Assembly: GCA_025355245.1 (NCBI GenBank)
Contig: JANXZZ010000037.1
Location: 39,338-103,337, forward strand
Origin: Pseudomonadota bacterium
GTDB taxonomy: Bacteria; Pseudomonadota; Gammaproteobacteria; Steroidobacterales; Steroidobacteraceae
Direction of reading: 5' to 3'
Length of the DNA: 64,000 bases
In this document: piece after piece, positions 19,044-36,747 of the stretch
Layout of the letters: every line of letters starts with the position of its first letter
Numbering within the stretch: position 1 is the stretch's first letter
Program-made: the position numbers and the translations under genes
Notes under the pieces: generated by a model
What the model was told of the DNA's origin: nothing
Seen by the model: the letters and a program-made list of their open reading frames with translations, nothing else
Databases searched by the model: none

Positions 19044-22000
19044 CTAGCGGCGGGGCCGGCTGCGGCGCGAAGCCTTGGTGCGCGGCGTTGCGGCTTCGGG
19101 CGCCGGCGCGGGCTCCGCAACGTCGGGTGGCGCGCTCGCGCGAACTTCCGCCTGCACCACGCGCCGCGCGGTCCACTGCCCATCGTCTGCCGGCGCCGCG
19201 CCAATCGGTTCGATGCCGAGCCGTTCCAGCATTCCGAACAGATCGTCGAGGACGTTCTCGCGGCGCAGCCAGAAGCTCGAAGCGAAGCATCGCCAGAACG
19301 TCCAGCCCGCGCGCTCGAGAACCCGCTGGCGGGCCATGTCGGCGAACCACTGCGGCGGGCCCTGCCGGCGGTCGCCGTCGCACTCAATCGCCAGACGCCG
19401 GTCGTGCGCACCCTCGACGACAAAGTCGATTCGAAACGCCGCGATTCGAACCTGTGGGCGCACCCGGTAGCCGCGCGCCACCAGCGCATCGTATATCGCA
19501 CGCTCGAAATCCGACTCGCACAAATCGCGCGGCGCGCCTTCTGTCGCGGCGTCGAGTCGAAACGGCTCGCGAAAGTGGCGGATCAGGCGTGCGTTCAGCG
19601 TATCCGCGCCGACATCGCTTTCCTCTATCGAGCGGAACAGGTACATCCGGTCGCAGGCGCGCGACGCGGCGACGTTGAAGCGCTGCGATATCTCGAGGCG
19701 GTTGCCGATCGCTCGATCGTTCTTCGCGAGCACCATCGAGAGCAGCATGATCGCCCGTTCACGGCCCTGGAAACTCGGCGGCGCGCCGGTCGAGATCCGG
19801 CGCGCCACAATGTCGCGCGGAGAAATGCGCCTGCGGATCAGCTTGTCGATCAGCTGCGCCTGGTCGTGGCCGAGGAGTGTGACGATGCCGATCGAGCGGT
19901 CCGCCATTGCGGGATCGGCAATGATCGCCTCGACCTCGCGGGCGATCGCGCGCGCTTCGCCCTCGTTCACATCCCCGACCCGGGACGCGCCCTCCACCAG
20001 CACGTCGATCAGCGGCGGGTCGAGGCGCTCGCTCGAACGGGCGATGCGCAGCGGGCGGATCGCGCCGCCGTAGAACTCGCGATTGGAGTACTCGATGATC
20101 GCAGGCACCGAGCGGAAGTGCTCGCGCAGCATGATCGAATTGCCGGCGAACACGACCCGCGCGAGGTCGTAGATCGACCGGTCCGGCGTCATCTGCGAAC
20201 CGTGCGGCTGGTTCTTCAGGAAGCGACGCGACAGCTCCTTGATCTTCTGCTCGGCGATGCCGACCGCAGAGGGCGAGACCTGCTTGTGATCGCCGACGAT
20301 CAGCAGCTTTTTCCCGCGTACGAGCGCGGGCAATGCCCAAAGGTCCGACTGCGAAGCCTCGTCGATGACGACAAGATCGAAAAGTCCGATTTCCGAGGGC
20401 AGCGTCTCCGAGACGCGCCAATGCGGCAGGATCCAGCACGGAACTGCGCGATACGCGCGCTGCATGGCGGCTCGGGCCACCTGCCGGTGCCGGATCGCCC
20501 GGATCCCTGTCCCGGCGCCGATCGCCTGCATTGCGTTGACGTACTCCTGCAGTGCCTGCCGAACGCGCGCGGGTGAATTTCGATGGACGGCGAGCCACGC
20601 GCGGTCCGAGATCAGCGCCCGGTAGATCCGAGCGAGGTCGCCTTCCGCGGACTTGCGCTTTAGGAACAGCTGCTTCAGCGTGTCGTGTCCCTCGAGACTG
20701 CCGAGCTGCATCGCAGCCACCCGCCAGCGCCACGCGTCGAGCCAGGTCGGCGGCGTCAGTGGGTCGTCGATTGCCGTCGCCGGAAGCGTGCGCAGATTTT
20801 TCGCCCATCCGGCGGCGCCGGACGCCTCGACCGCGGCCGCGACACGCTCGACGGTTGCGAGGAGCGGCCCAAGATCGGAGACGCGGCGCAGTTCCGCCAG
20901 CAGATTGCGCCACTGGGCGGTCAGCGCAGCGTCGGTGGTGCCCGCCTTGCCGATGGCCGTCGTCAGGAACGTCCACAGCGCGTCGACGACCGCGCCGCCC
21001 ATCCCCTCGAGCTTGACGAGTGCCTCGCGGACCTGGCCGCTGGCGTAAGTGAGCTGACCCTTGTCGAGGTGGCTGGCGAGACTCTCCGCGACCGCCTGGC
21101 GGCGCGACCCGTCGTGATCCGAGCTGTCCTCGAGAGCGCGTGCACTGAACACGGCGGGAATTTCGGTGCGGATCGGCGCCTCAATGCGTGTGACCAGCTC
21201 GTGCACTTTGAGCACGTGCTCGGCCCGCGCGACCAGGCTGCGGAAACCCGTCGGACCCGTCTCCTTGACGGGGTCGAGGCCGCACTCGCGGATCATCGCG
21301 TTCCACGACGCCAGCAGCTTACGCGCCTTGATGCGGTGCTCGAGCTCGTCCGCGACCCGCCGCCAGTCCTCGGCACCTTCCGGCTTCATGCCCGCGACGG
21401 TCACGGCGTCGAGGCAGGCGCGCGCTTCCCGCTTGCCGATCGGCATCAGAAACCCGAACTTGCCTTCCGCCAGCCGCTGGACGGCATCGACCACGTCGCG
21501 CTGCAGCTCGGCGTTGGTCGGCGCTTCGACCGCGCGCGCAAGCCGGGCCCGACGAGCGAGTTCCTCGACCGCGATCGAGCGTGCTGCCGTGATGAGCCCG
21601 CGGGCGAGCGGGTCCTCGCGTGCCTCGAACCTCACGCGCAACCGATCGGCCCACGCGAACGGGTCCTTCTGGATGTCGGCGCGCAGCGCGTCGCCCCTGC
21701 GCAGGAGTTCGCGGAGCTTGGCGGCGCGTTCGAGAGTCGCCGGCGTGCCGTCGATTAGCGGCAATACCGCGCCCGAGCCGATCAGGGTCTCGATGTGGTG
21801 GGCCTGTAGGAGGTCCCGGTGCAGCACCAGAAGCGCGGCTTCCGTCGGCAGGCTCTCGATGACGGGCAGACTGTCGTTCAGGTACACCAGATCGGCGCCG
21901 AGGCGCATGCGGGCGTCGCGAAGTTGGGCAAAGTCGGCGGCCGTGATCGCCGGCAGCCGTTGGGATTGCGGGTCGAGCGGATCGGTCAGCCAACCGTGCT

Positions 22001-23576
22001 CCGCCGCCTGCTCGACGACGAGCTGCGCGAGTTCCGAGGGCGCCACCTCCCGGTCACCCGCGCGCACGTGCGTCAGCTGCTTCTCGGCAAGCGCACTTAT
22101 CTTCTGGTCGAGTGCGGCGACGGCCTCGTGGAGCCGGGCGAGCCGCGCCTCGTGGCCGGCGATTTCCTGTTCGAGCGCTGCCGGCTTGAGCGCGCTGATG
22201 CGCTCGGCAATCGTCTGCACGGCGTGCCCGAACTGCTTAAGGCCGTCGCGCTCGCTCGAGAGGAGCGCGACCGTCAGCGAGCGTACTTCCTCCGGGATCT
22301 TCTCCTGAAGGACCGCCAGCGCCGATTCGCCTTTGGAGGTAACGAGAACGCGCTTGCCGAGCGCCAGAAAATGACAGATCACATTCGCGATCGTGTGGGT
22401 CTTGCCGGTGCCGGGTGGTCCCTGCACGACGACGCCGTCGCGCGTCTCGAGCTGCTCGATGATCGACACCTGCTCGTCGTTGTAGGGCAGCGGGAAATAG
22501 AGCTCTTGCACGCCGGCGCCGGCGGCCGACGAGGACAGACCGCGGAACTGCACGCTCTGGTGATCGTCCACCGACTCGCTGCCCGGGACGACGAAGCTCG
22601 CAAGCGCGGCCGGCAGCTCCGGAAGCGTCGCCAGGTGGATCTTCAGGCGTTCGATATCCTCGAGCAGCACGTGCTCGGAGCGGCGTCGCGCAAACAAGAC
22701 CCAGCTGTCCGTGACGAGGACGTGTTCGCCCGGGTCCGGAAGCCGGTCAGCGTGGGTCCCCTCGAGGAAGCGGCCGTTGGCATCGAGGTGCCCGACGGCC
22801 GCCCGCAGCACCGGGGTCGTGCTCGCTGAGTCGAATGGCGACGGGCGATTGGTCGCCGACGGCAAATACTGGTTCCAGAACGCCTGCAGCGCGGCGACGC
22901 CGGGGTTCTGGAGCTCTGCGTACGCATCGAGCTCGATGACCGGATCAACGTTGCGCGGCCGGACGGCGAGTTCGAAGGTCTGCTCGTTGAGCGAGATCTC
23001 GCAGGCCTGGGTGATGAGCGGGAACTTGACCACCGTGCCGTCACCGGGCGGCTTCCAGAGGGAAACGCCCATCCCCCAGACGAGCTCGAGCGGCATCTCC
23101 ACCCCGCCTGTCGCGAGGACCTGGTGGAGCGCGAACAGCCTGTTGTAGAGCGCGATCGCCTTGCGCCGCGGGCGTTCGGCGACGGCCCAGGGCATCCATT
23201 GTTGCTCGAGGTAGGTCGCGAAGACCTTCTTGACGCCTGGAAAGCCGAAGAGGGTGAGCCGCGTCTCGCCGCTCGGGCCCGCGCGCACGACTTCGTCGCG
23301 CAACGTCGGCTCCTTGTCGGCGGTGTGCGAGAGTTCGATCCACGGCTCGAGCGAAGCGGTGGGTTCCGGCGGCGAGATGGGGCCGAGGCGCGGGAGGCTG
23401 AGCCAGACGTCGTCACCGTCGTGGAGCTGATTGTACGTGAGGCCGGGGAGCTCGCCGATTTCCACCTCGAAAGCGTGGAAGAATTCGCCCGGCACCGTGA
23501 ACGCCGCGGACTTGCGGAGCTTCTCGACCTGCTCGATGTACGAAAACAGCGAAACGAGCCCGTTCGCGGGATCCAT
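19044..23576 (-). CDS. SF1 DNA/RNA helicase fused to a C-terminal PD-(D/E)XK-like (MTES_1575/Vsr-type) nuclease, 1510 aa
   Basis: Walker A VVQGPPGTGKTHTIANV; DEAS box VVIDEASQSDLWALP; REHFRSVPAIIEYSN; C-terminal FRIDFVVEGAHDRRLAIECDGDRRQGPPQWFADMARQRVLERAGWTFWR. Confidence 0.88.
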   Translation of the reverse strand: MDPANGLVSLFSYIEQVEKLRKSAAFTVPGEFFHAFEVEIGELPGLTYNQLHDGDDVWLSLPRLGPISPPEPTASLEPWIELSHTADKEPTLRDEVVRAGPSGETRLTLFGFPGVKKVFATYLEQQWMPWAVAERPRRKAIALYNRLFALHQVLATGGVEMPLELVWGMGVSLWKPPGDGTVVKFPLITQACEISLNEQTFELAVRPRNVDPVIELDAYAELQNPGVAALQAFWNQYLPSATNRPSPFDSASTTPVLRAAVGHLDANGRFLEGTHADRLPDPGEHVLVTDSWVLFARRRSEHVLLEDIERLKIHLATLPELPAALASFVVPGSESVDDHQSVQFRGLSSSAAGAGVQELYFPLPYNDEQVSIIEQLETRDGVVVQGPPGTGKTHTIANVICHFLALGKRVLVTSKGESALAVLQEKIPEEVRSLTVALLSSERDGLKQFGHAVQTIAERISALKPAALEQEIAGHEARLARLHEAVAALDQKISALAEKQLTHVRAGDREVAPSELAQLVVEQAAEHGWLTDPLDPQSQRLPAITAADFAQLRDARMRLGADLVYLNDSLPVIESLPTEAALLVLHRDLLQAHHIETLIGSGAVLPLIDGTPATLERAAKLRELLRRGDALRADIQKDPFAWADRLRVRFEAREDPLARGLITAARSIAVEELARRARLARAVEAPTNAELQRDVVDAVQRLAEGKFGFLMPIGKREARACLDAVTVAGMKPEGAEDWRRVADELEHRIKARKLLASWNAMIRECGLDPVKETGPTGFRSLVARAEHVLKVHELVTRIEAPIRTEIPAVFSARALEDSSDHDGSRRQAVAESLASHLDKGQLTYASGQVREALVKLEGMGGAVVDALWTFLTTAIGKAGTTDAALTAQWRNLLAELRRVSDLGPLLATVERVAAAVEASGAAGWAKNLRTLPATAIDDPLTPPTWLDAWRWRVAAMQLGSLEGHDTLKQLFLKRKSAEGDLARIYRALISDRAWLAVHRNSPARVRQALQEYVNAMQAIGAGTGIRAIRHRQVARAAMQRAYRAVPCWILPHWRVSETLPSEIGLFDLVVIDEASQSDLWALPALVRGKKLLIVGDHKQVSPSAVGIAEQKIKELSRRFLKNQPHGSQMTPDRSIYDLARVVFAGNSIMLREHFRSVPAIIEYSNREFYGGAIRPLRIARSSERLDPPLIDVLVEGASRVGDVNEGEARAIAREVEAIIADPAMADRSIGIVTLLGHDQAQLIDKLIRRRISPRDIVARRISTGAPPSFQGRERAIMLLSMVLAKNDRAIGNRLEISQRFNVAASRACDRMYLFRSIEESDVGADTLNARLIRHFREPFRLDAATEGAPRDLCESDFERAIYDALVARGYRVRPQVRIAAFRIDFVVEGAHDRRLAIECDGDRRQGPPQWFADMARQRVLERAGWTFWRCFASSFWLRRENVLDDLFGMLERLGIEPIGAAPADDGQWTARRVVQAEVRASAPPDVAEPAPAPEAATPRTKASRRSRPRR

Positions 23577-23930: not shown

Positions 23931-25484
23931 CTAATTGACGGGACCTACGTTGAACGTGAATTGACCGGTCTCGAACTTGTCCACGTACTCGCCCCGGAAG
24001 ACGCCGTTCGCAATTCGGCCGCGCATGGTCACCTGTGTGCTCGTGGTGCCATCGGCGTACTTCAGCTGGATTAGGCCGAATTTCTTCCCGAGCTGCGTGA
24101 AGCCTGTACCGGAAACGTTGTTCGGGTTTGAGAGGTTCAAGCTGCCGCGAAGTCGCGCGCCGTTCTCGCCCACGTAGGAGAAGCTTCCGTCTCTCATCAG
24201 GGAGAAGTTGCCGGGCAGGTTGGCGCCTGGAACCAAGGTACTCGTGATGACGCCGTTGAAGGATCCGGACGTGCCCGTGGCGCTGCCGGGCGACGGTGCC
24301 GCGGTTGCCGTCGCCTGCGGAAACTGCCCGTCGTTCGCTGCGGCCGCGGGCGGCGCGTCCGCCGGGCGCGACGCCGCGGTTGCGGCACGCGTGAGTTTTC
24401 GCGACATCAGCGAAGCTTCGGCGGCGTGAACTCCCTTCGGAAACTGTGTGCGATAGTCGGTGAAGTCGGCTGGGTCGGTGCTGTCCTTGATGCGATCCCA
24501 GAACGACTGGTCGAGCTCCGCCGCCGATTCCACGTGGATCGTCGCGGGCAGTTGCACGGGGCCGCTCGGGGTCGCCTCGACATGGGCGGCGGAATCGGGC
24601 GGCCCGGCCGCGCCGGGCCGGAAAAAGAATTCGCCGATCGTCTGGTCGTAGAGTGCCGGCACCTGTTCGTGGCTCGCGCTCTTCGCGAGTTGCACGACTT
24701 CGTCGCGCACGACCTTCAGCATCCGGTCGACGGGCACGCCGGGCTTCTGCATCTCCTTCAGCAGCACCCGCGTGAATACGCCGTTGGGATCCCGGTCGTT
24801 CGGCCCCAGTCGATCGAGCGCGGACTGCCCCGCGCCTGCGGAGTAAAGCACCATCTGCCCGTTGGCCGCCGTCACGGGCGCGAGGCCACGCCCGCCTATC
24901 GCCCGCCCTGCCCCCTTGAAGGGATTGTCGCGGCACGCATCGACGATTGCGAGCGAGAATCGCGCCTTCTGGTCGTTAAGGTCATCGAGCACGCGCTGCA
25001 GCGGCACCGCGTCGTCCGCCACCTGCTGTTCGTTCTCGGCGACAATGTCGATGGGGACCAGGTAGTTGGTGCCCTCGAACTGCACGCCGTGGCCCGAAAA
25101 GTAGAAGATGACCTCGTCGCCGCCGTTGACGCGGGCCTTGAACTCACGCAGGGCACCCTTGAGGGCCGTGAGCGTGAGGTCCTCCTTCAGCGTTACGTCG
25201 AAGCCGAGACCCTGCAGCACCGCCGCAACGGCCTTCGCGTCGGAACGGGCATTCTTGAGCGCCGCGACGTTCCTGTAGCTGTCATTGCCGACCACGAGCG
25301 CGAGCCGGCGAGCCTCGGCCGTCGCGGCGAACGCGACCAGAGCGACAGCAGTCACGAGTGCGCCAGCCCTCCGTTGCCACGACGCCGCGCGACGATGTGC
25401 GTCCGGATCGCGACGCACACCGCCGCGCAGACGCGGGCCGCATCCGTTGTTGGAAGACAGCAAAGCAGGATCCCCGGTCGACAC
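23931..25484 (-). CDS. Caspase family (C14) protease with N-terminal signal/TM and C-terminal beta-rich domain
   Basis: RRLALVVGNDSYRNVAALKNARSDAKAVAAVLQGLGFDV, FYFSGHGVQFEGTNYLVPID (His), LAIVDACRDNPF (Cys). Confidence 0.92.
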   Translation of the reverse strand: MSTGDPALLSSNNGCGPRLRGGVRRDPDAHRRAASWQRRAGALVTAVALVAFAATAEARRLALVVGNDSYRNVAALKNARSDAKAVAAVLQGLGFDVTLKEDLTLTALKGALREFKARVNGGDEVIFYFSGHGVQFEGTNYLVPIDIVAENEQQVADDAVPLQRVLDDLNDQKARFSLAIVDACRDNPFKGAGRAIGGRGLAPVTAANGQMVLYSAGAGQSALDRLGPNDRDPNGVFTRVLLKEMQKPGVPVDRMLKVVRDEVVQLAKSASHEQVPALYDQTIGEFFFRPGAAGPPDSAAHVEATPSGPVQLPATIHVESAAELDQSFWDRIKDSTDPADFTDYRTQFPKGVHAAEASLMSRKLTRAATAASRPADAPPAAAANDGQFPQATATAAPSPGSATGTSGSFNGVITSTLVPGANLPGNFSLMRDGSFSYVGENGARLRGSLNLSNPNNVSGTGFTQLGKKFGLIQLKYADGTTSTQVTMRGRIANGVFRGEYVDKFETGQFTFNVGPVN

Positions 25485-25611
25485 GCTAGTTCTCGGGGCA
25501 GCATTTCACCAAAGCGCGCGGCGTGCAATGCCCGGGCGAATCCGGGATCCGCGCCATCGCGGGGTCTCGTGCCGCGACGTACCGGCGCTACCGCGGTATG
25601 TTAAACGCCGC

Positions 25612-26154
25612 TCACATCTGCGGATGTTCGTCCGGCGTCGCGGGCTTGGCCATAGGCGGGGCCGGTTTGGCCGGCTTCTCATCGGCCTTGAATCCCGCCA
25701 GCTCGCGGGTACGGGGTTGGCACTCCGTGCTCAGCGCGCGCGTGCCGGCCCAGGCGCCGGTCTCGAGCTTCTGGCAGATAGCGGCGTGCTGAGGCGCCTC
25801 GGCGAGATCGGCGCTGGTCACGACCCAGCGCGCGCTGATCCAGAGCTTGCCCGTGCCGGCTCCGCAAGCGGAGTCGTTCGGGATCTGCAGCAGGCTGCCG
25901 TGGAAGCAGCCGCTCACCGGCAAGGCCTCGTTCTTCGGGCTGATGACACTCCACGTCACCGAGCACGCTGGCGTAAACGTGTGTTCGGAGGTTTCCCTAA
26001 GCAGTGGCATCGGCCGGTTGTCGCTGCGCGGACCGAGGATCCGATTGTTCAGCATCAGGCACGCGTCGGCGGGCGTTGCTGCCGGCGGATCCGCGGCCAG
26101 CGTTGCGAGCGCCGCGAGCCCGAGAAATGCCCCAGTCAACGCCTGGATCGTCAC
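25612..26154 (-). CDS. Exported hypothetical protein, translationally coupled to the CHASE2 gene
   Basis: GTG start overlapping upstream stop (GTGA); signal peptide VTIQALTGAFLGLAALATLAA; Cys-containing body. Confidence 0.65.
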   Translation of the reverse strand: MTIQALTGAFLGLAALATLAADPPAATPADACLMLNNRILGPRSDNRPMPLLRETSEHTFTPACSVTWSVISPKNEALPVSGCFHGSLLQIPNDSACGAGTGKLWISARWVVTSADLAEAPQHAAICQKLETGAWAGTRALSTECQPRTRELAGFKADEKPAKPAPPMAKPATPDEHPQM

Positions 26155-27833
26155 TTGCTCGTCCCCTGTGACTGTCGCGCCCCGTGGATCGCATCGACGT
26201 TGCGCGCGAACTCGAGTATCGCGGCGTGCGCGACGAAGAAGCCGAAGGCCGCGAAGGACAGATAGCCTACCCAATCCACCGGCGGCAGAGAAAGCCACTG
26301 GTAGCCGAGCCAGATCGCGACCGCGACGACCAGCAGCGACAGCGCGAGCGCCGCGACATACAGGGCCAGGTTGCGGAGCCGGCCCTGGAGTTCACCTTCC
26401 GAGGCGAGGCGAACCTCGATCAGCACGAGCGCTACAATCGCCGTGAGAACGGCGATCATCTGCAGGAGCTGGAATGCGGCCAGCAGGACAAGCACGATCG
26501 CCATCGCCGCGACCCACAGCGTCGTCGGCAGACGGCCGATGATCGCGGCAATCAACGATCGCGCGGCCGGCGAGAGTTCGAACGGCCCGCGGCTCCCGGG
26601 ACGCCCCACGCTGATCCATGACTGGCGCTTGAGGAAGATGGCCGCCAGAACCCAGAGCACCATCAGGTCGAAGACGTAGTAGCCGAGCCGCCGGCTGCGA
26701 AATTCCTTGCGGATCTTGGGGTGCCCGTCGAAGGCCAGCAGGTTGTCGAGCGCGACCGCGTGGTAATAGACGCCCGGCAGCCGCGTGTGCAGCGGCGTCG
26801 TCATGAGGTCGCCGCCGCCGCGAAAATTCCCGCCGACGAAGACGAAGGAACCTTCCATGAGGTTGAACAACTCCTCGTTCCTGAGCCCGAACGATGCGTC
26901 CTCCGTGGGACTCAGGAGCGCACTCGCGAACAACGTGGCGACGGGCGGGCACTGCGTCTCGCGCGGCAGTGGTTTCTTGAAGAGGACCGCCTGAGTGACC
27001 GAAGGGACCTGGTCGCACCGGGCTTCCGACCATCGCTGGTTGAAGGGATCGCCTTCGGGTGACCATGCGAGTTCGAAGCCGGCGTCTACGGAGCGCTCGC
27101 GCGTCAGGCGGTCTACGCAGGTGGCGGAGTCCTTGGTGGAATCGCAGAACATGCGCACGGCGGCACTGCTGACCCCGGAACCCGGCGCGTCCTTGGGAAG
27201 CCGGTCCTCGAACGGGTAACGACGGTTGACGAAGTCCGTCGTGTCGATCTGCAGGCGCACCGAGACGGGCGTCAGTACGTGCGCGGCGTCGAGCGCAGGT
27301 CCCGAGCCGGCGCGGCAATCGCCTGCATCGAGGTTCGACAAATCGTCGCTTCGCGTCACCGCAACGTAAGTCGCGGTACCCGCCTCGTGCAGGCTCTGCG
27401 CCGCCTGTAGCAACGCGCAGGTGGCACTCTGCGAGGCGCGATCGATCAGCAGGAAGTCGAGCATGACCGCGCGCGGCTTGAGCACCGCGAGCTCACCGAG
27501 CAGCTGTGCGTGGAAGTCCACCGGTACCGGCCAGCGCGCTCCCCGCAGCGCGAGCGCGTCGTCGTCGACCAGCATGACGACGACCCGCGGACGTGAGCCG
27601 GGCGTCGGCTTGGCCTCCGGCGCCAGCCGCGGATAGAGCCAGCTCGCGTTACCGAACCAGGCGTAGACGAGATCCTGCGAGAACCGGTGACCGACGCTCA
27701 TCGCGCCGAGCGGGTTGAAATTCAGGAAGAACAGCGCGACCGCTGCAAGTAGCAGACTTTCAAGGATAACCCCCCGGCCCGCCGAGACCGCCGGCGGCTT
27801 CACCGAGGCGGGCGCTGTCTTGGGGGCGGTCAT
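26151..27833 (-). CDS. CHASE2-domain membrane protein without an obvious output domain
   Basis: VVVMLVDDDALALRGARWPVPVDFHAQLLGELAVLKPRAVMLDFLLIDRAS; 'FVFVGGNFRGGGDLMTTPLHTRLPGVYYHAVALDNLL'; several C-terminal TM helices. Confidence 0.85.
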   Translation of the reverse strand: MTAPKTAPASVKPPAVSAGRGVILESLLLAAVALFFLNFNPLGAMSVGHRFSQDLVYAWFGNASWLYPRLAPEAKPTPGSRPRVVVMLVDDDALALRGARWPVPVDFHAQLLGELAVLKPRAVMLDFLLIDRASQSATCALLQAAQSLHEAGTATYVAVTRSDDLSNLDAGDCRAGSGPALDAAHVLTPVSVRLQIDTTDFVNRRYPFEDRLPKDAPGSGVSSAAVRMFCDSTKDSATCVDRLTRERSVDAGFELAWSPEGDPFNQRWSEARCDQVPSVTQAVLFKKPLPRETQCPPVATLFASALLSPTEDASFGLRNEELFNLMEGSFVFVGGNFRGGGDLMTTPLHTRLPGVYYHAVALDNLLAFDGHPKIRKEFRSRRLGYYVFDLMVLWVLAAIFLKRQSWISVGRPGSRGPFELSPAARSLIAAIIGRLPTTLWVAAMAIVLVLLAAFQLLQMIAVLTAIVALVLIEVRLASEGELQGRLRNLALYVAALALSLLVVAVAIWLGYQWLSLPPVDWVGYLSFAAFGFFVAHAAILEFARNVDAIHGARQSQGTSK

Positions 27834-28194
27834 CGCATGCCCCGGTTCGCCCGCCGCTTCGGGTGGCCCCCGCGGCACGGCGATCGATCGGATGACGTCG
27901 CGGATGACATGACGCTGCGCCGCATTCCCGGGGCCCGAAAGTTTGCCGGATATTGGATTGACACTGAGGAATGCTGTCGTATGCTGATCCTGGACACAAG
28001 AACACTCGGCGTCGCATTCGGGGGTGCGGTCGGGTGCGCTGGGCGGCGGGGCCCGGGAGCTCTCCTACGACTCACAAGTCTGCGCCCCGCTAGTGCTGGG
28101 TCGGCGGCCGGTCGTCGCACGGTTCCCTGCCAGCCCCTTCCCACGTGCACGCGGCGCAAGCGCCGCGCTCCATTTTCTTAAGGGAGTCGTACCG

Positions 28195-29583
28195 TTGAAC
28201 ACCAGGCCCTGGACATACGTCGCCGTCGCCGCTCTTGCGCTGCTCCTCGGGAATCCGGTGTTCGCCGGATCCAAGGCGCTGTTGATCGGCGTCGGCAAGT
28301 ACGAGCTTCCCAACAACGACCTGCCGGGCATCGATCTCGACATCGAGAACATGAAGCACGTGTCGAAGATCATGGGCTTCCAGCCGAATGAAATTAAGGT
28401 CCTCTTCGACGATCAAGCGACCTACGCGGGCGTCAAGGCGGCGCTCGCGGGTTGGCTGCGCGACGGCGTCGGGCCGGATGACCGCGTCCTCATCTATTTC
28501 AGCGGTCATGGCACGCGCGTTCCCGACCCACGACCGAATGCCACCTCGCCGCTCGACGATGCGCTCGTCATGCACGACGTGAAGACGACCCGGATAAACG
28601 GCAAGGCAAGCCTGGCCAACGTCCTGCTCGGCTACGAATTCGGCGACGCTCTGGCGGCGATCCCGAGCAAGCACATTCTGGTGCTGGTCGATGCGTGCCA
28701 CAGCGGTACCGCGACGCGCACCCTGTCGCTCGGCAATCGTCGGCTGGGCGACGGTCACGGAGCTGTCAAGTACTTCCATTGGGACGGTGCCCCCAGCGGC
28801 GGCGCGACGCGCGGGCTGCACGTGCACACGGGCAACGAGAACTACGCTGCGGTATCCGCTGCCCGCGACGATGAATACGCCCTCGCGACCGAACACGGCG
28901 GGCTCTTCACGCTCGCGGTCCTCGACACGATCGACGACGCCTCGCGCAGCGCGAAGCGGCCGACCGTCGCCGACCTGCGCGCCGCAACGACGGTGTACAT
29001 CGAGAAGCACACCGACGAGCAGTCCCGGCACCACCCGGTGGCCGATGGCAGCAAGGCCCTCATCGATAGCCAGCTGCCATTGGTACCACTGCGCAACGGT
29101 AACGGCCCGACGTGGGCCGCGTTGGACGCACTCGCAAAGAAAGGCGAGATGCTGACGGTGAAGGCCGGCGCCTCAGAGCTTCGCGTGGGTGACGAGATCG
29201 TGCTCACTGCCGTCGTGCCGCGCTCGGGCTTCCTCAACGTCGTCGCGATCGACAGCCAGGATCGAGCGACGGTGCTCTATCCGAACCAGTTTTCGCCGAG
29301 CAACGACGTGGTCGCGAGCACGTTCGAGTTCCCCTCGCCGAGCATGGGCTTTGTGCTCAGGGCGACGGAGCCGGTCGGGCCGACGCTCGTGGTCGCGTTC
29401 CTAACGGACAAGAAGGTTAACCTGCTCGACCTCGGCGTCGAAGGCCGGGACGCGGCCGGCAAGATGGAATCGACCTTCACCGAGGTGAACACGATGGCGA
29501 CGCGCGCGCTCAGCGTTGAGGCGCGACACCAGGGCTTTGCTGCCGGCACCGTGACGATCAACGTCAAGCCCGCGGGCAACTAG
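28195..29583 (+). CDS. Caspase family protease with C-terminal DUF4384-like domain
   Basis: SKALLIGVGKYELPNNDLPGIDLDIENM, LIYFSGHGTRVPDP, HILVLVDACHSGTATR; DUF4384-like LRVGDEIVLTAVVPRSGFLNVVAIDSQDRATVLYPNQ; TTG start with RBS AAGGGAG. Confidence 0.9.
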   Translation: MNTRPWTYVAVAALALLLGNPVFAGSKALLIGVGKYELPNNDLPGIDLDIENMKHVSKIMGFQPNEIKVLFDDQATYAGVKAALAGWLRDGVGPDDRVLIYFSGHGTRVPDPRPNATSPLDDALVMHDVKTTRINGKASLANVLLGYEFGDALAAIPSKHILVLVDACHSGTATRTLSLGNRRLGDGHGAVKYFHWDGAPSGGATRGLHVHTGNENYAAVSAARDDEYALATEHGGLFTLAVLDTIDDASRSAKRPTVADLRAATTVYIEKHTDEQSRHHPVADGSKALIDSQLPLVPLRNGNGPTWAALDALAKKGEMLTVKAGASELRVGDEIVLTAVVPRSGFLNVVAIDSQDRATVLYPNQFSPSNDVVASTFEFPSPSMGFVLRATEPVGPTLVVAFLTDKKVNLLDLGVEGRDAAGKMESTFTEVNTMATRALSVEARHQGFAAGTVTINVKPAGN

Positions 29584-29656
29584 TTTGCGCTTCCGGGTCC
29601 GCGCCAGTGCGAGGCCGCGGGGCCGAATCGCCGGCTTCTCCCACCCAAGGCGAGAC

Positions 29657-30616
29657 ATGAGCAGAGCGCGAACCTCGATACTGGCCGTCGGCGTAATGAG
29701 CGCGCTTGGCGCTGCGCCGACCGCGACTGCGGAATCGGTGGTGATCCCGCTCGCGCCGACGCAAACCGAACTCGTGATGATCGAGGGCCGCGATGCCGCG
29801 CGCTCGCTCCTCGACCGGCGCCTCAAGCTCGTCGACCCCGACGGTGCGTCCGAGCGTGATCTCCTCGCCTTTTGCTCGAACGGCGAGCCGCAGCGAACCG
29901 CGGCCGACAAGGGGCTGCTCACCGAATTCCTCGGCCAGATCCTGAGCCTCACGCTCGAGAAGGTCGCGGACAAGATACGCACGGAGATGGGCAAGTACAG
30001 CGCGCTTTCGGAGCGTACCGTGCGGATCGATTACTACCGCGGCGTCCCTTCCTCGCAAGGCGCGGGGCGTCTCGACAGCCGCTACCAGTGCGTGCGCTTC
30101 GTCCGTATCGCGCCGGAGTCGCCGAACGGCTCCGAGGTCGCGCTCGATTTCGTGGCGGGCATCGGTCTTGATTCCGGGCGGGACGCGATCGTGCTGCGAC
30201 CCTTGCGCCTTTACGTGAGCAAGACCGCGGCGCGCAGCGCTACCGGCAAATACGGCGTGGCTATCTCCCTGCACGCGGATGCCGTGTGGCGCGATGCAAG
30301 TGTCGGCCATTCGGCGACGGTCTTCGAGCAGACGATAGCGTCGGAACCGATCGACCTCACGACCGGTCCGTACCTCAAGTACTACCCCGTCGATCCTATG
30401 AGCGGGCATCGCGTGCCGATCGTGCCGATTTCGGCCGATATCGACCACACGAAGGACTTCGGTCGCGTGGATTTGACACTGGGTGCGGCCGAAATCGGCA
30501 CGCCGCCAGCGGCGCTCGCGCTCCTCGCGCAGCTATTCCCATTGACGACCGAGCGCCGCGCGCGCCTCATGATCGAAGCGGCCATCATTTCGAGCCTGCC
30601 GATCCCCTCGCCCTGA
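29657..30616 (+). CDS. Exported hypothetical protein downstream of the caspase
   Basis: Signal peptide MSRARTSILAVGVMSALGAAPTATAE; no recognised domain; 73-bp gap to caspase stop. Confidence 0.65.
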   Translation: MSRARTSILAVGVMSALGAAPTATAESVVIPLAPTQTELVMIEGRDAARSLLDRRLKLVDPDGASERDLLAFCSNGEPQRTAADKGLLTEFLGQILSLTLEKVADKIRTEMGKYSALSERTVRIDYYRGVPSSQGAGRLDSRYQCVRFVRIAPESPNGSEVALDFVAGIGLDSGRDAIVLRPLRLYVSKTAARSATGKYGVAISLHADAVWRDASVGHSATVFEQTIASEPIDLTTGPYLKYYPVDPMSGHRVPIVPISADIDHTKDFGRVDLTLGAAEIGTPPAALALLAQLFPLTTERRARLMIEAAIISSLPIPSP

Positions 30617-30676
30617 GCGCGAGCGAATACGTGCTGGCGCCGCAAGGCGACACAGCCGGTCCGCGCGATGCCGCCG

Positions 30677-31900
30677 CTAGTTCGAGCCGTCGCCGTGAAC
30701 GACCTGCTGGCGGGTCCAATTCCCCGGTAGCGTCCCGTTGGGATTCGCGTTGGCATCGTTGGTCTGGTAGCTGGCCTTGCCGGAGCTGTCGACCCAGGTC
30801 GCGTTGTAGCCGCTCGCGACCTTGCTGACCTGCCCGGTATGCGGGTCGCGGACGGTCTGCTGGTCGAGCGAGTAGTCGACCCAGTCCTGGGCGATGGCGT
30901 GGTTCGAGTTGGCCACCTGTGCCGCCCGCGCCATGGAAAGGTCGGTACCGCGCTGCATCGTCGACAGGAACTGCTCGTGCATCCGCTGGCGCACGGCCTG
31001 GTCGTGGTTGAACTGCGCCGCGCTCGCAGCTAGCTGCGCCGCGCCCTGCTGGGCGATCTGCTGCACCATCTGCTCCCCCTGGCGCTGGTTTCGCTGGAGC
31101 CATGCCTGTTCCCAGGCTGCATTGGGGCTGGCACCGATCGCACCGGACGCAATCGTGGCGAGCACGCGGGGGAAACGGTCCTCGGGAGCGACCGTATAGC
31201 GGACACCCGCGTTGCACTTCGCGGTGGTCGTGGGCGGCCGGTCCGGGACACCGCGCAGCCCCGATTTCATGCCTGGAAGATACGACTCCATGCAATCAAC
31301 AGTGGCCTGCAGGAGGCCCTTCATCACGAAGCTGCCGTTCTTGAAGCGGACGATCGCGCGCGCGAGTTCGCGGGTCTGATGCGGAGGCTTGATACCGCTC
31401 GCGGCGTATTTCGGGGCGTACACGGCGGCGGCGTCCGCGAAGTTTTTTTGCGCACGTGCGTTCTCTTCGGCGGGCACCGGCGCGTCAGCCACGTACTCCA
31501 CCTTCAGCGTGGACGAAAGGAATTTCAGAAACTGCTGCGCCGACACCCCTTCCTTGAGCGGCAGGCAGTCCTTGTTGCTCGGGAGGCCGGGGCCGCTGCC
31601 CCACGACCAGCCGAGCGTCGGCATCCGCTCCACGAAGCTGAGTCCGTCCGGACTCGTCAACCGAAACACCTGGAACGGAACTCCGACGCACTGGCCGCCC
31701 TGGCCGAGCGTGCCCTGGAAATGCCAGTCCGCTGGAACGCGAACGTCGAACGCGACCATGCCGTTTAGCGTCGGGTCGGTGATGTGCTCGGTCCGGACGT
31801 CGCCCGCCGCCGCTGGGCGGCACCAGCAGAACGACGAAACGATGAACGTGGCTGCGACGGCATTCAGGCGGACCCGAGCCGTGGAATCAACTAGTGACAT
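30677..31900 (-). CDS. Exported hypothetical protein, Gln/Ala-rich C-terminal half
   Basis: Signal-like N-terminus; EQAWLQRNQRQGEQMVQQIAQQGAAQLAASAAQFNHDQAVRQRMHEQFLS. Confidence 0.6.
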   Translation of the reverse strand: MSLVDSTARVRLNAVAATFIVSSFCWCRPAAAGDVRTEHITDPTLNGMVAFDVRVPADWHFQGTLGQGGQCVGVPFQVFRLTSPDGLSFVERMPTLGWSWGSGPGLPSNKDCLPLKEGVSAQQFLKFLSSTLKVEYVADAPVPAEENARAQKNFADAAAVYAPKYAASGIKPPHQTRELARAIVRFKNGSFVMKGLLQATVDCMESYLPGMKSGLRGVPDRPPTTTAKCNAGVRYTVAPEDRFPRVLATIASGAIGASPNAAWEQAWLQRNQRQGEQMVQQIAQQGAAQLAASAAQFNHDQAVRQRMHEQFLSTMQRGTDLSMARAAQVANSNHAIAQDWVDYSLDQQTVRDPHTGQVSKVASGYNATWVDSSGKASYQTNDANANPNGTLPGNWTRQQVVHGDGSN

Positions 31901-32001
31901 GCGTCCCTCACCTCAGATTGGACCGACGCCGACCCACGCGCCGGGCGAGCGATGCGGCAGAGGAAACGGCCGAAGCATCCCCTGCACGGCGCACCGGTTC
32001 A

Positions 32002-33507
32002 TCAGTGACCGCGGAACCGCCAGTAGAGGCCGACCGCCGCATCGCGGACGCGCTCGAGCGCAAAATGCTCGCGCTCCTCGGGCGGCAGGCTCTTGCGGAT
32101 CACGTACATGAGGTCGGACATCACTGTGTCGCTGTCCCCGAAGTAGGAATGGCCGAGGAATTCCGTGCTCACGGCCGATGCGTCCACCGTGTCGAGACCC
32201 TTCAGCACCACGATGTCCTTGCCGCTCTCGCCCAAGCGCACGTAGCCGCCATGTACGCCGCGCGAGGCGGCGAGCGCCTTGTCGTTGCTCGAAGCGTAGA
32301 GAGTGACCCGCGGACCGACGCCAAGGATAGCCGGTGCGATCTCGCGCTTGAACACGTCCGCATCGATGTCAGGCGCCGCCAGCACGATCTGCTTGAACGG
32401 CAGTCGCTTGGCCGGATCGTCGGCCAGCAGCGCCTTGAAACCGCGCGTGAATACGCGATTGCCCATGCTGTGGGCGACCACGTAGATCGGGGTGTTCGAG
32501 GCCAGGGTCGCGAGCGAGGCCAGCACGTCCTTCATGTCCGGCACCGACCACTCGGCGGCCTGCTCGTCGACGGTGTACTCGACCGTCGATGCGCGCGAGG
32601 GCCACGAGAAGAGGACCGTCGATCCGCCGAACTTGAGGTCGAACGCGAGCTGCGCCGCGCGTCGCGCGGCGTCGGAAAAGCTCGAGTTATAGCCGTGCAC
32701 GAACACGAGGATGCCCGGATTGCCGAGCTCGGTTGCGTGCTTGGCGACGTCGGCCCGCCAACTGGCGAGGTTCAGAACCTTGAGCGACTGGACCATGACG
32801 TGCTTGTCGGGATCCGCGGTGAACTCGAGCCGCAGGATCGAAGGCGCCTCGAGCTGGCCGACCTCGTGGGTCTTAGGCAACGCGACGTTGACGATGCCGT
32901 AGGCGAGCGCGCCGCGGTCGCCGCCGAAATGCGCGTCGGGCGAGGAATCGCCCGTCGCCTTGCGGTTCGTCGCATAGAAGACGCGCACGACGTGGTATCG
33001 CAATTTCCCGCTCGAATCGACGACCGGCTCGCCGACGTCGGGCGTGCCGTCCTTGAAGTCCTTGGTGTGCGCAAGCGCCGGACGGGCGGGTATCGCCGTT
33101 GCGAGCACCCGATCGAGGACGGGCATAGCGCCTCTGCCGACGCCCTGGGCCACTTCCGTCTCAAGGTCGGGCGCCTGCTCCGCCGTCAGGGACAGCGCAA
33201 TATCCTGCTCGGCGGCAACGGTCTCGCCGCACAGTTCCGGGTCGAAGGGCGCCCCGTAGACCTCCTCCGCGCTCCCACCCCAATAGCGCCGATTGGCGAG
33301 CACCGCGCCGAGACGCGCCGCGAAATGCGTGACGTCCACGCCATCGACCTTGAGCCTGAGTCGCGCGGTGCGGGTCTCATCGAGGGACGTACCGCGCACG
33401 CACAGATCGAAGCTCGCGGCGCGGGCGCTCGGCAGTGCGATCACCGAAGCAATCAGCAGCAGCGCGGCGAGCGTCAATCGCGCACGGGGGCGAGCATCAA
33501 TCGACAT
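32002..33507 (-). CDS. Exported DUF900 alpha/beta hydrolase
   Basis: GILVFVHGYNSSFSDAARRAAQLAFDLKFGGSTVLFSWPSRASTVEYTVDEQAAEWS...VVAHSMGNRVFTRG. Confidence 0.88.
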   Translation of the reverse strand: MSIDARPRARLTLAALLLIASVIALPSARAASFDLCVRGTSLDETRTARLRLKVDGVDVTHFAARLGAVLANRRYWGGSAEEVYGAPFDPELCGETVAAEQDIALSLTAEQAPDLETEVAQGVGRGAMPVLDRVLATAIPARPALAHTKDFKDGTPDVGEPVVDSSGKLRYHVVRVFYATNRKATGDSSPDAHFGGDRGALAYGIVNVALPKTHEVGQLEAPSILRLEFTADPDKHVMVQSLKVLNLASWRADVAKHATELGNPGILVFVHGYNSSFSDAARRAAQLAFDLKFGGSTVLFSWPSRASTVEYTVDEQAAEWSVPDMKDVLASLATLASNTPIYVVAHSMGNRVFTRGFKALLADDPAKRLPFKQIVLAAPDIDADVFKREIAPAILGVGPRVTLYASSNDKALAASRGVHGGYVRLGESGKDIVVLKGLDTVDASAVSTEFLGHSYFGDSDTVMSDLMYVIRKSLPPEEREHFALERVRDAAVGLYWRFRGH

Positions 33508-35613: not shown

Positions 35614-36747
35614 TCACGCCGACCACACCTCGCTGAACAAGCGCGCGAAGTTGCGGCCGAGAATCTTCTCGATGTGTCCGTCGGTCCAGCCGCGGTGGGA
35701 GAGATCGTCCGCCAGCGTCTTGAAGCGGCGCGGATCATTGTATTCCGGGACGATGTTGAAGACGTCGGCCGCCTCGCCCGGCGCCGCAATGCCCGCCTTC
35801 TGCCGATCCTCGAAGAACTTCTTCTGGAACTCCGCGTAGCGTTTGTCGAGCTTGGGGCCCGAGATCGAGCCGTCGGTCCCGAGTCCGACATGGTCTTCAC
35901 CGCACACGTTGACCGCGTGCTCAAGGTGGCGGATCAGGTCTTCGGCGTGTGGTTGGCCGGAGGCACGCAGGAACGGCATGAAGTAGATGCCGGCGACGCC
36001 GCCGCGGTCGGCGAGCGCCTTGAGGGAGCTGTCACTCGTGTTTCGCGGCACATCGACCAGCGCCCGGCAGCCGGTGTGGGTGATCGCCATGGGCGAGGTG
36101 GACGCCGCGATCCCCTCAGCGATCGTGCGCGGCCCCGCGTGACTCAAATCGAGCAGCAGGTGCAGGCGGTTCACTTCCGCGACGAACTCATGCCCGAGGC
36201 GGCTTAGCCCGCCGTCGGCCGCTTCGAGGCAGCCGTCGCCGACGAGATTGCGGCGATTGTAGGTCGGTTGGGTAATCCGCACGCCGAGGTTGTAGAACAG
36301 CGATAGCCGCGACAGGTCTCCCTCAAGCATGCTGCTGTCCTGGAATCCGAAGATCAGCCCCATTCGGTTCGTCGACTTCGCGAGGCCGATGTCCTTGCCG
36401 CGGAGGACCTTGAGGAAGACATCCGGGTGTGCCGCGAGCTCGTGCTCCATCGACGCGATCGCGGCGATCGTCTTGTCGAAGATTCCGGGACCGTTGCCCA
36501 CGTCGTTGACCGTGACATTGACGGCCGTGACGCCGGACGCCCGCACGTCGGCCAGGGCCTGCGCCGGCAGCGGCGCGTCGTCCGGCAGATCGGGATCGAC
36601 GCCACCCGGCCCCCCGAGCGAGTCAATCACCGTTGCCCGCGCGTAGCGCGCGTTGTCGAAGCCGTCGGTTCCCGAGGCCGCGCGCGCCGAACAGGCAGTG
36701 GCATATCCGGCGAGTGCAATCAGAATGGCTTCGCGGCGCGTGAGCAT
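35614..36747 (-). CDS. M19 membrane-dipeptidase homologue
   Basis: LGVRITQPTYNRRNLVGDGCLEAADGGLSRLGHEFVAEVNRLHLLLDLSHAG...ITHTGCRAL; GLGTDGSI. Confidence 0.88.
   Translation of the reverse strand: MLTRREAILIALAGYATACSARAASGTDGFDNARYARATVIDSLGGPGGVDPDLPDDAPLPAQALADVRASGVTAVNVTVNDVGNGPGIFDKTIAAIASMEHELAAHPDVFLKVLRGKDIGLAKSTNRMGLIFGFQDSSMLEGDLSRLSLFYNLGVRITQPTYNRRNLVGDGCLEAADGGLSRLGHEFVAEVNRLHLLLDLSHAGPRTIAEGIAASTSPMAITHTGCRALVDVPRNTSDSSLKALADRGGVAGIYFMPFLRASGQPHAEDLIRHLEHAVNVCGEDHVGLGTDGSISGPKLDKRYAEFQKKFFEDRQKAGIAAPGEAADVFNIVPEYNDPRRFKTLADDLSHRGWTDGHIEKILGRNFARLFSEVWSA

Follow-up and report, generated by a model that had tools for sequence, protein, structure and literature searches.

Exported caspase-family proteases encoded together with a DUF900 hydrolase and a CHASE2 membrane protein in Steroidobacteraceae

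The 64,000-nucleotide stretch of contig JANXZZ010000037.1 analyzed here (hereafter, the window), from a Steroidobacteraceae bacterium with a 4.0 Mb assembly (348 contigs, 87% completeness), contains a set of seven genes, casp1, smallexp, CHASE2, casp2, unk343, unk407 and DUF900, whose relatives recur together in other genomes. The genes for exported proteases of the caspase family are coupled with those for an exported DUF900 alpha/beta-hydrolase and an exported companion, which is either unk343 or another protein, p500, of about 480 residues; the coupled set often includes, in addition, a CHASE2 protein that has no output domain, an OmpA-type protein, or both. Tentatively, and with somewhat less than even confidence, we interpret the region as a patchily distributed, co-regulated periplasmic module in which proteases and a hydrolase would make up a two-step switch in the cell envelope.

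On the minus strand, CHASE2 (26151..27833), smallexp (25612..26154) and casp1 (23931..25484) face casp2 (28189..29583) and unk343 (29657..30616) on the plus strand. An initial annotation, made from the sequence alone, had located all these genes correctly, and the domains that it named pass the Pfam cut-offs, by which domains were assigned here (the window proteins were also compared with NCBIfam and PADLOC profiles). Its statement that an exported protein and an exported hydrolase follow the plus-strand operon stands as to their presence, but unk407 (30677..31900) and DUF900 (32002..33507) are both encoded on the minus strand, outside that operon. Chance is excluded as the origin of this gene neighborhood because it recurs in other genomes and because all seven genes are under purifying selection, with pairwise ratios of nonsynonymous to synonymous substitution rates (dN/dS) of 0.16-0.50.

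Recurrence and rearrangement of the gene set

A search of 148 genomes of the order with casp2 recovered three orthologues (about 40% identity), and 80 loci came from scanning 85,462 species representatives. Related clusters, with the gene order rearranged among them, are carried by 13 loci, all within one order: the window, L042, L049, L043+L123, L045, L047, L048, L124, L126, L128, L129+L133, L130 and L131/L132. Taxonomy labels of the named loci are mostly Gammaproteobacteria or Proteobacteria, and L044, a short contig with casp2 alone, is labeled Rhodospirillales. The co-location of homologues in other genomes, on which the initial annotation had staked its proposal, is borne out by these loci: DUF900 is adjacent in 12 of the 13 and CHASE2 in 7, and all 13 have an exported companion, either unk343 or p500, two proteins that are apparently unrelated. 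Because the genomes tested carry only 0-4 copies of DUF900 and 0-5 of CHASE2, chance would not be expected to make them neighbors within a few kilobases in most genomes; the loci being related to each other, no p-value is attached to the 13-locus adjacency.

Three subgroups can be delineated. Subgroup A, with the gene set of the window, comprises the window itself, L042 (casp2 80%), L049 (casp2 78%) and L043+L123, two contigs of one genome separated by a break inside casp2. CHASE2 orthologues are found in L042, L049 and L123, each directly followed by smallexp (dN/dS 0.16-0.37), and the unk343 orthologue directly follows casp2 in L042, L043 and L049 (dN/dS 0.31-0.50), whereas unk407 has an orthologue at the same place in L049 only. 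In L043+L123, smallexp-CHASE2 is divergent to OmpA-casp2-unk343-casp1, so that casp1 has moved to the opposite operon and yet has been kept in the set. Subgroup B (L045, L047, L048, L124 and L126) combines TPR-DUF900, p500 and casp2, with an OmpA-type protein in some members and a CHASE2 gene in L045 and L048. In subgroup C (L128, L129+L133, L130 and L131/L132), TPR-DUF900, p500 and OmpA stand opposite one or two caspases. One operon of L129 reads caspase>CHASE2>caspase, with an overlap between its last two genes, and is faced in L129+L133 by casp1>TPR-DUF900>p500>OmpA>two-partner secretion (TPS) exoprotein>ShlB transporter; the casp1 product of L129 is 55% identical to that of the window over the caspase domain. 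What stays constant is a core of caspases, DUF900 hydrolase and exported companion.

Several of these loci carry further genes. The TPS exoprotein of L133, with ESPR and YDG repeats, and its ShlB transporter (L133:4108-11392) lie directly downstream of the caspase/DUF900/p500/OmpA genes. Beside casp2 in L048 (11609-17492) are an autotransporter beta-domain protein and a Sel1-caspase protein of about 1100 residues, with homologues in L045 and L036/L047; a 302-residue exported protein next to CHASE2 in the same locus was considered as a FecR candidate and dismissed, having no Pfam match. A Ser/Thr kinase with a Calx-beta domain adjoins the caspase pair of L130 (4226-6373).

The outer-membrane cargo of several loci keeps alive an alternative in which the substrates of the caspases are exported or outer-membrane proteins, such as autotransporters, TPS exoproteins and OmpA-type proteins, and the hydrolase modifies or remodels the envelope around them. 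The clan CD proteases gingipains and PorU process secreted cargo, and surface-protein maturation of this kind would account for the autotransporter and the third, Sel1-fused caspase beside casp2 in L048, for the TPS exoprotein and transporter directly after OmpA in L133, and for the OmpA-type protein in 7 of the 13 loci. The same alternative would have no need of CHASE2, is faced with three loci that carry no such cargo (the window, L042 and L049), and has to accommodate outer-membrane partners that vary from locus to locus; on balance, we regard it as a live contender, although a rather doubtful one.

Patchy distribution and exchange of the protease partner

Of 200 genomes of the window's family, 6 have a casp2 orthologue, including 3 of the 15 that belong to the genus, and G515 retains a casp2 remnant that is in three pieces and has internal stops. 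The p500 protein is likewise present in 6 of the 200 family genomes, every copy beside TPR-DUF900, and was not found outside the order in a 369-genome sample of the class, which held no known positive. This is the pattern of an accessory set that is gained and lost. Within the genus, all three casp2-positive genomes have the DUF900 orthologue, as does one of the 12 casp2-negative ones (G654); the chance that all three casp2 genomes would fall among the four DUF900 genomes is 4/455 = 0.009, phylogeny being ignored. The DUF900 gene of G654 overlaps one that encodes an exported TPR-CHAT protein (CHAT, E 3.5e-58). CHAT is a caspase-fold peptidase domain, and therefore, the hydrolase keeps a caspase-fold neighbor even in a genome without casp2. 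Outside the order, genes for CHAT and for exported caspase and DUF900 proteins are neighbors on two Sulfitobacter plasmids. On one of these, the THAF37 plasmid (L159:7309-12981), the caspase-DUF900 pair is followed by genes for a mechanosensitive channel and another caspase; a plasmid of Pseudosulfitobacter pseudonitzschiae of about 80 kb, present in many strains (L162), carries two caspase genes with a patatin-like phospholipase, as well as a trypsin-like protease, a two-component system and a CHAT gene.

Because the set is patchy, a role in defense or regulated cell death is the other live rival: phage infection or envelope damage would be sensed, and the caspases would turn the hydrolase against the envelope of their own cell, in a form of abortive infection. 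Apart from the occurrence in 6 of 200 genomes and the decayed casp2 of G515, such a role would be consistent with the match of both caspases to the generic PADLOC caspase profile, with the helicase-nuclease resembling Hhe and ProA that is encoded next door, also in L042, and with the existence of caspase-linked conflict systems (PMC8195603). Those described are cytoplasmic, however, the nuclease neighbor is missing in L049 and other loci, the window cassette shows no phage-sensor or toxin domain, and CHASE2, smallexp, unk343, unk407 and DUF900 match no defense family in PADLOC or NCBIfam, which leads us to consider a defense function unlikely.

Several observations weigh against the module as proposed. 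CHASE2 is absent from 6 of the 13 loci and DUF900 from one genome, G712, so that neither is obligatory. The interpretation in the initial annotation, by which CHASE2 would sense an extracytoplasmic signal, one caspase would act on the other or on the uncharacterized proteins, and the hydrolase would be an effector, is partly supported, by co-location, export-type N-termini and the shared intergenic region, its cascade being conjectural. Distant casp2 relatives (34-39% identity; L057, L058, L059 and L062, from Lamprocystis, Gallionella and others) have no CHASE2 or DUF900 nearby, their neighbors being additional caspases, DUF4384-like lipoproteins that stand alone, and OmpA-type proteins. The companions unk343 and p500 are not demonstrably homologous: they are alike in position and layout, but with hhalign E-values of 0.12-0.66, the distant homology that we considered is unproven. 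Finally, 9 of the 11 inspected plasmid DUF900 loci have no annotated caspase or CHAT neighbor, and accordingly, the notion of DUF900 as an obligate caspase partner everywhere was rejected, the link to caspases and CHAT being limited to a subset of DUF900 proteins.

Taken to the extreme, such variability could mean that exported caspases, CHASE2 and DUF900 merely share envelope gene islands without a common pathway. The varying composition of the loci and the nine plasmid DUF900 genes without an annotated caspase are compatible with such loose clustering, which is, nevertheless, hard to reconcile with overlapping genes, with the unique, shared divergent promoter block (see below), with the location of DUF900 next to a cluster of caspase-fold proteases in 13 of the 14 order-level loci, CHAT swap included, and with the recurrence in Alphaproteobacteria. 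We consider it very unlikely.

Protein features and the divergent promoter block

Both caspases are clear members of Peptidase_C14 (Pfam cut-off 21.4 bits): casp1 matches with E 1e-33 and 117 bits, and casp2 with E 6e-15 and 56 bits, the latter carrying, in addition, a C-terminal DUF4384 domain (E 9e-13), whereas the C-terminal extension of casp1 carries no known domain. The His (SGHG) and Cys (DAC) dyad reported in the initial annotation is indeed found in both, as SGHG 130 and DACR 182 in casp1, where it is kept in 5 orthologues, and as SGHG and VDACH in casp2, where the His and Cys columns are kept in all 19 aligned relatives. The best matches of casp1 (dN/dS 0.23-0.33) in a PDB sequence search are to the MALT1 paracaspase. 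The AlphaFold2 model of casp2 (pLDDT 86, pTM 0.86) retrieves, with Foldseek, metacaspase 9 (E 9e-15), GSU0716 (TMt 0.70) and MALT1, so that a caspase fold is predicted for casp2 by the model and for casp1 by sequence, casp1 being paracaspase-like and casp2 metacaspase/orthocaspase-like. Residues 173-188 of the model, directly past the catalytic Cys, are poorly ordered and may correspond to an activation loop. Against the EACC1-associated caspase model, casp1 and casp2 score 57.3 and 42.7 bits, below the curated cut-off of 140. A second casp1 caspase domain lies in the same assembly (L033:13932-14655, at the end of C186), with 83% DNA identity over 725 bp; it is cut by the contig end, has no CHASE2 or smallexp upstream, and represents either a recent duplication or a mixed strain.

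The CHASE2 protein matches its Pfam family with E 2e-16 and 60.8 bits (cut-off 26.3), and a transmembrane (TM) scan predicts TM1, a periplasmic CHASE2 domain and 4-5 further TM segments, 5-6 overall; past the last of these, there is a tail of only 20 residues and no other Pfam match. The hydrolase belongs to DUF900 (PF05990, E 7e-47, 160 bits, cut-off 20.5), with the Ser nucleophile elbow AHSMG. No Pfam, NCBIfam or PADLOC match was found for smallexp, a Cys-containing protein of about 180 residues, or for unk343 and unk407. The structure model of unk343 is unusable (mean pLDDT 30), and PDB profile searches with unk343 and with p500 gave no significant match. The C-terminus of unk407, an accessory member, is 38% identical over 55 residues to a Cys-rich protein (L150:3997-5550) encoded near the TPR-CHAT/DUF900 pair of G654. 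A hydrophobic stretch lies at the N-terminus of each soluble member, in most cases with an AxA-like site after it, and export is, therefore, likely; these calls, made on hydrophobicity alone, agree with the earlier suggestion that the caspases have exported N-termini and that the set consists mostly of exported or TM proteins.

Some gene starts differ from those of the open reading frames; the CHASE2 frame spans 26151-27878. The corrected start of unk343 is the ATG at 29657 (frame 29585-30616), and casp2 probably begins with a GTG at 28186 or 28189 (frame 28024-29583). The corrected start of smallexp, the GTG at 26154 (frame 25612-26298), overlaps the CHASE2 stop as GTGA, which suggests translational coupling.

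The intergenic region that the initial annotation described as shared by the two operons gains weight from a conserved block (27955..28001, no strand assigned). This block includes TTGACA (27958-27963) and TATGCT (27980-27985), 16 nt apart, which together (27958-27985) form the sole sigma-70-like site in 10 kb, with 0.7 expected. The segment ATTGACA...ATGCTGTCGTATGCTG is identical across the four subgroup A loci, while the flanks have diverged. The block's exact 16-mer occurs once per genome, always at this site, in all four cassette-bearing genomes, and has no exact copy in eight other genomes. As a regulon motif, it was rejected, the cassette site being the only exact one, with a few two-mismatch matches elsewhere, none cassette-linked. 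The block looks like a promoter whose spacer is conserved, probably an operator, and we infer that it drives the minus-strand operon as well.

A possible envelope switch and its known relatives

The favored reading, a protease-to-hydrolase switch, can be outlined as follows. Given the lack of a cytoplasmic output domain, CHASE2, where present, may be the sensor in the membrane for its periplasmic partners, or their anchor. A signal from the envelope would release casp1 and casp2, which, by analogy, could cleave envelope proteins after Arg or Lys, as characterized orthocaspases and metacaspases do. The DUF900 hydrolase would be a likely substrate or effector of the caspases, and companion proteins of unassigned function might also be cleaved; the hydrolase would then act upon envelope lipid or ester substrates. 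A more specific version, which we find quite improbable, is a periplasmic caspase-to-lipase cascade, in which exported proteases of the caspase fold (C14 or, in G654, CHAT) would, when CHASE2 senses damage or infection, activate a DUF900 protein that breaks the cell's own envelope. Just as speculatively, such a cascade could be the envelope-executed counterpart of the bacterial caspase/CHAT-gasdermin death systems.

Most discussion of bacterial caspase relatives treats them as agents of cell death or defense in the cytoplasm, and the module may be an unrecognized protease switch in the bacterial envelope. A conserved module of exported caspases, DUF900 and output-less CHASE2 would point to periplasmic proteolytic signaling, place the DUF900 family in a testable biochemical context, and help to explain why some CHASE2 proteins terminate in membrane helices.

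The coupling of a C14 caspase to CHASE2 is known from the metacaspase-CHASE2 fusion of Trichodesmium erythraeum, with one TM segment before the receptor and three after it (PMC3501461, PMC2853523). There, however, the caspase is fused and predicted to be cytoplasmic, whereas the window has separate genes, exported caspases and an output-less CHASE2; that some metacaspases are extracellular has been remarked in general terms (PMC3501461). In the EACC2/TRADD-N conflict systems, CHASE2 is among the variable C-terminal domains of caspase proteins (PMC8195603), which again links the two, but the window has separate, exported proteases, and neither a STAND NTPase nor a TRADD-N partner was seen. The BiofilmReg operon, which couples FecR with a CHASE2-histidine kinase (PMC5192318), similarly encodes a CHASE2 membrane sensor beside an exported partner, whereas the window has no kinase, response regulator or FecR match. 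The window caspases share fold and His/Cys dyad with the orthocaspases, the p20-only bacterial C14 proteins (PMC5756287), and differ from them in being exported and clustered with a hydrolase and CHASE2. DUF900 hydrolases have no assigned function and no described partner (PMC11878206); the window protein is a clear member, for which a caspase/CHAT partnership is proposed here. The cassette matches no named anti-phage system in PADLOC or NCBIfam, only the generic caspase profile. In the literature searched, with preprints and most subscription journals outside the search, we found neither a link of DUF900 with caspases, CHASE2 or DUF4384 nor a description of the split periplasmic form of the CHASE2-caspase pair, in agreement with the earlier remark that no named system of this composition is known.

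Two neighbors lie outside the module. The gene at 19044-23576 on the minus strand encodes a 1510-residue SF1 helicase with a C-terminal MTES_1575 nuclease that resembles the Hhe, ProA and PDC-S37 anti-phage proteins; a 55% identical copy is present in L042 and none in L049, and, being common only to the window and L042, the gene was rejected as a module member. On the other side, at 35614-36747 on the minus strand, is an M19 membrane dipeptidase from an expanded family, with seven matches in this assembly and eight in G600.

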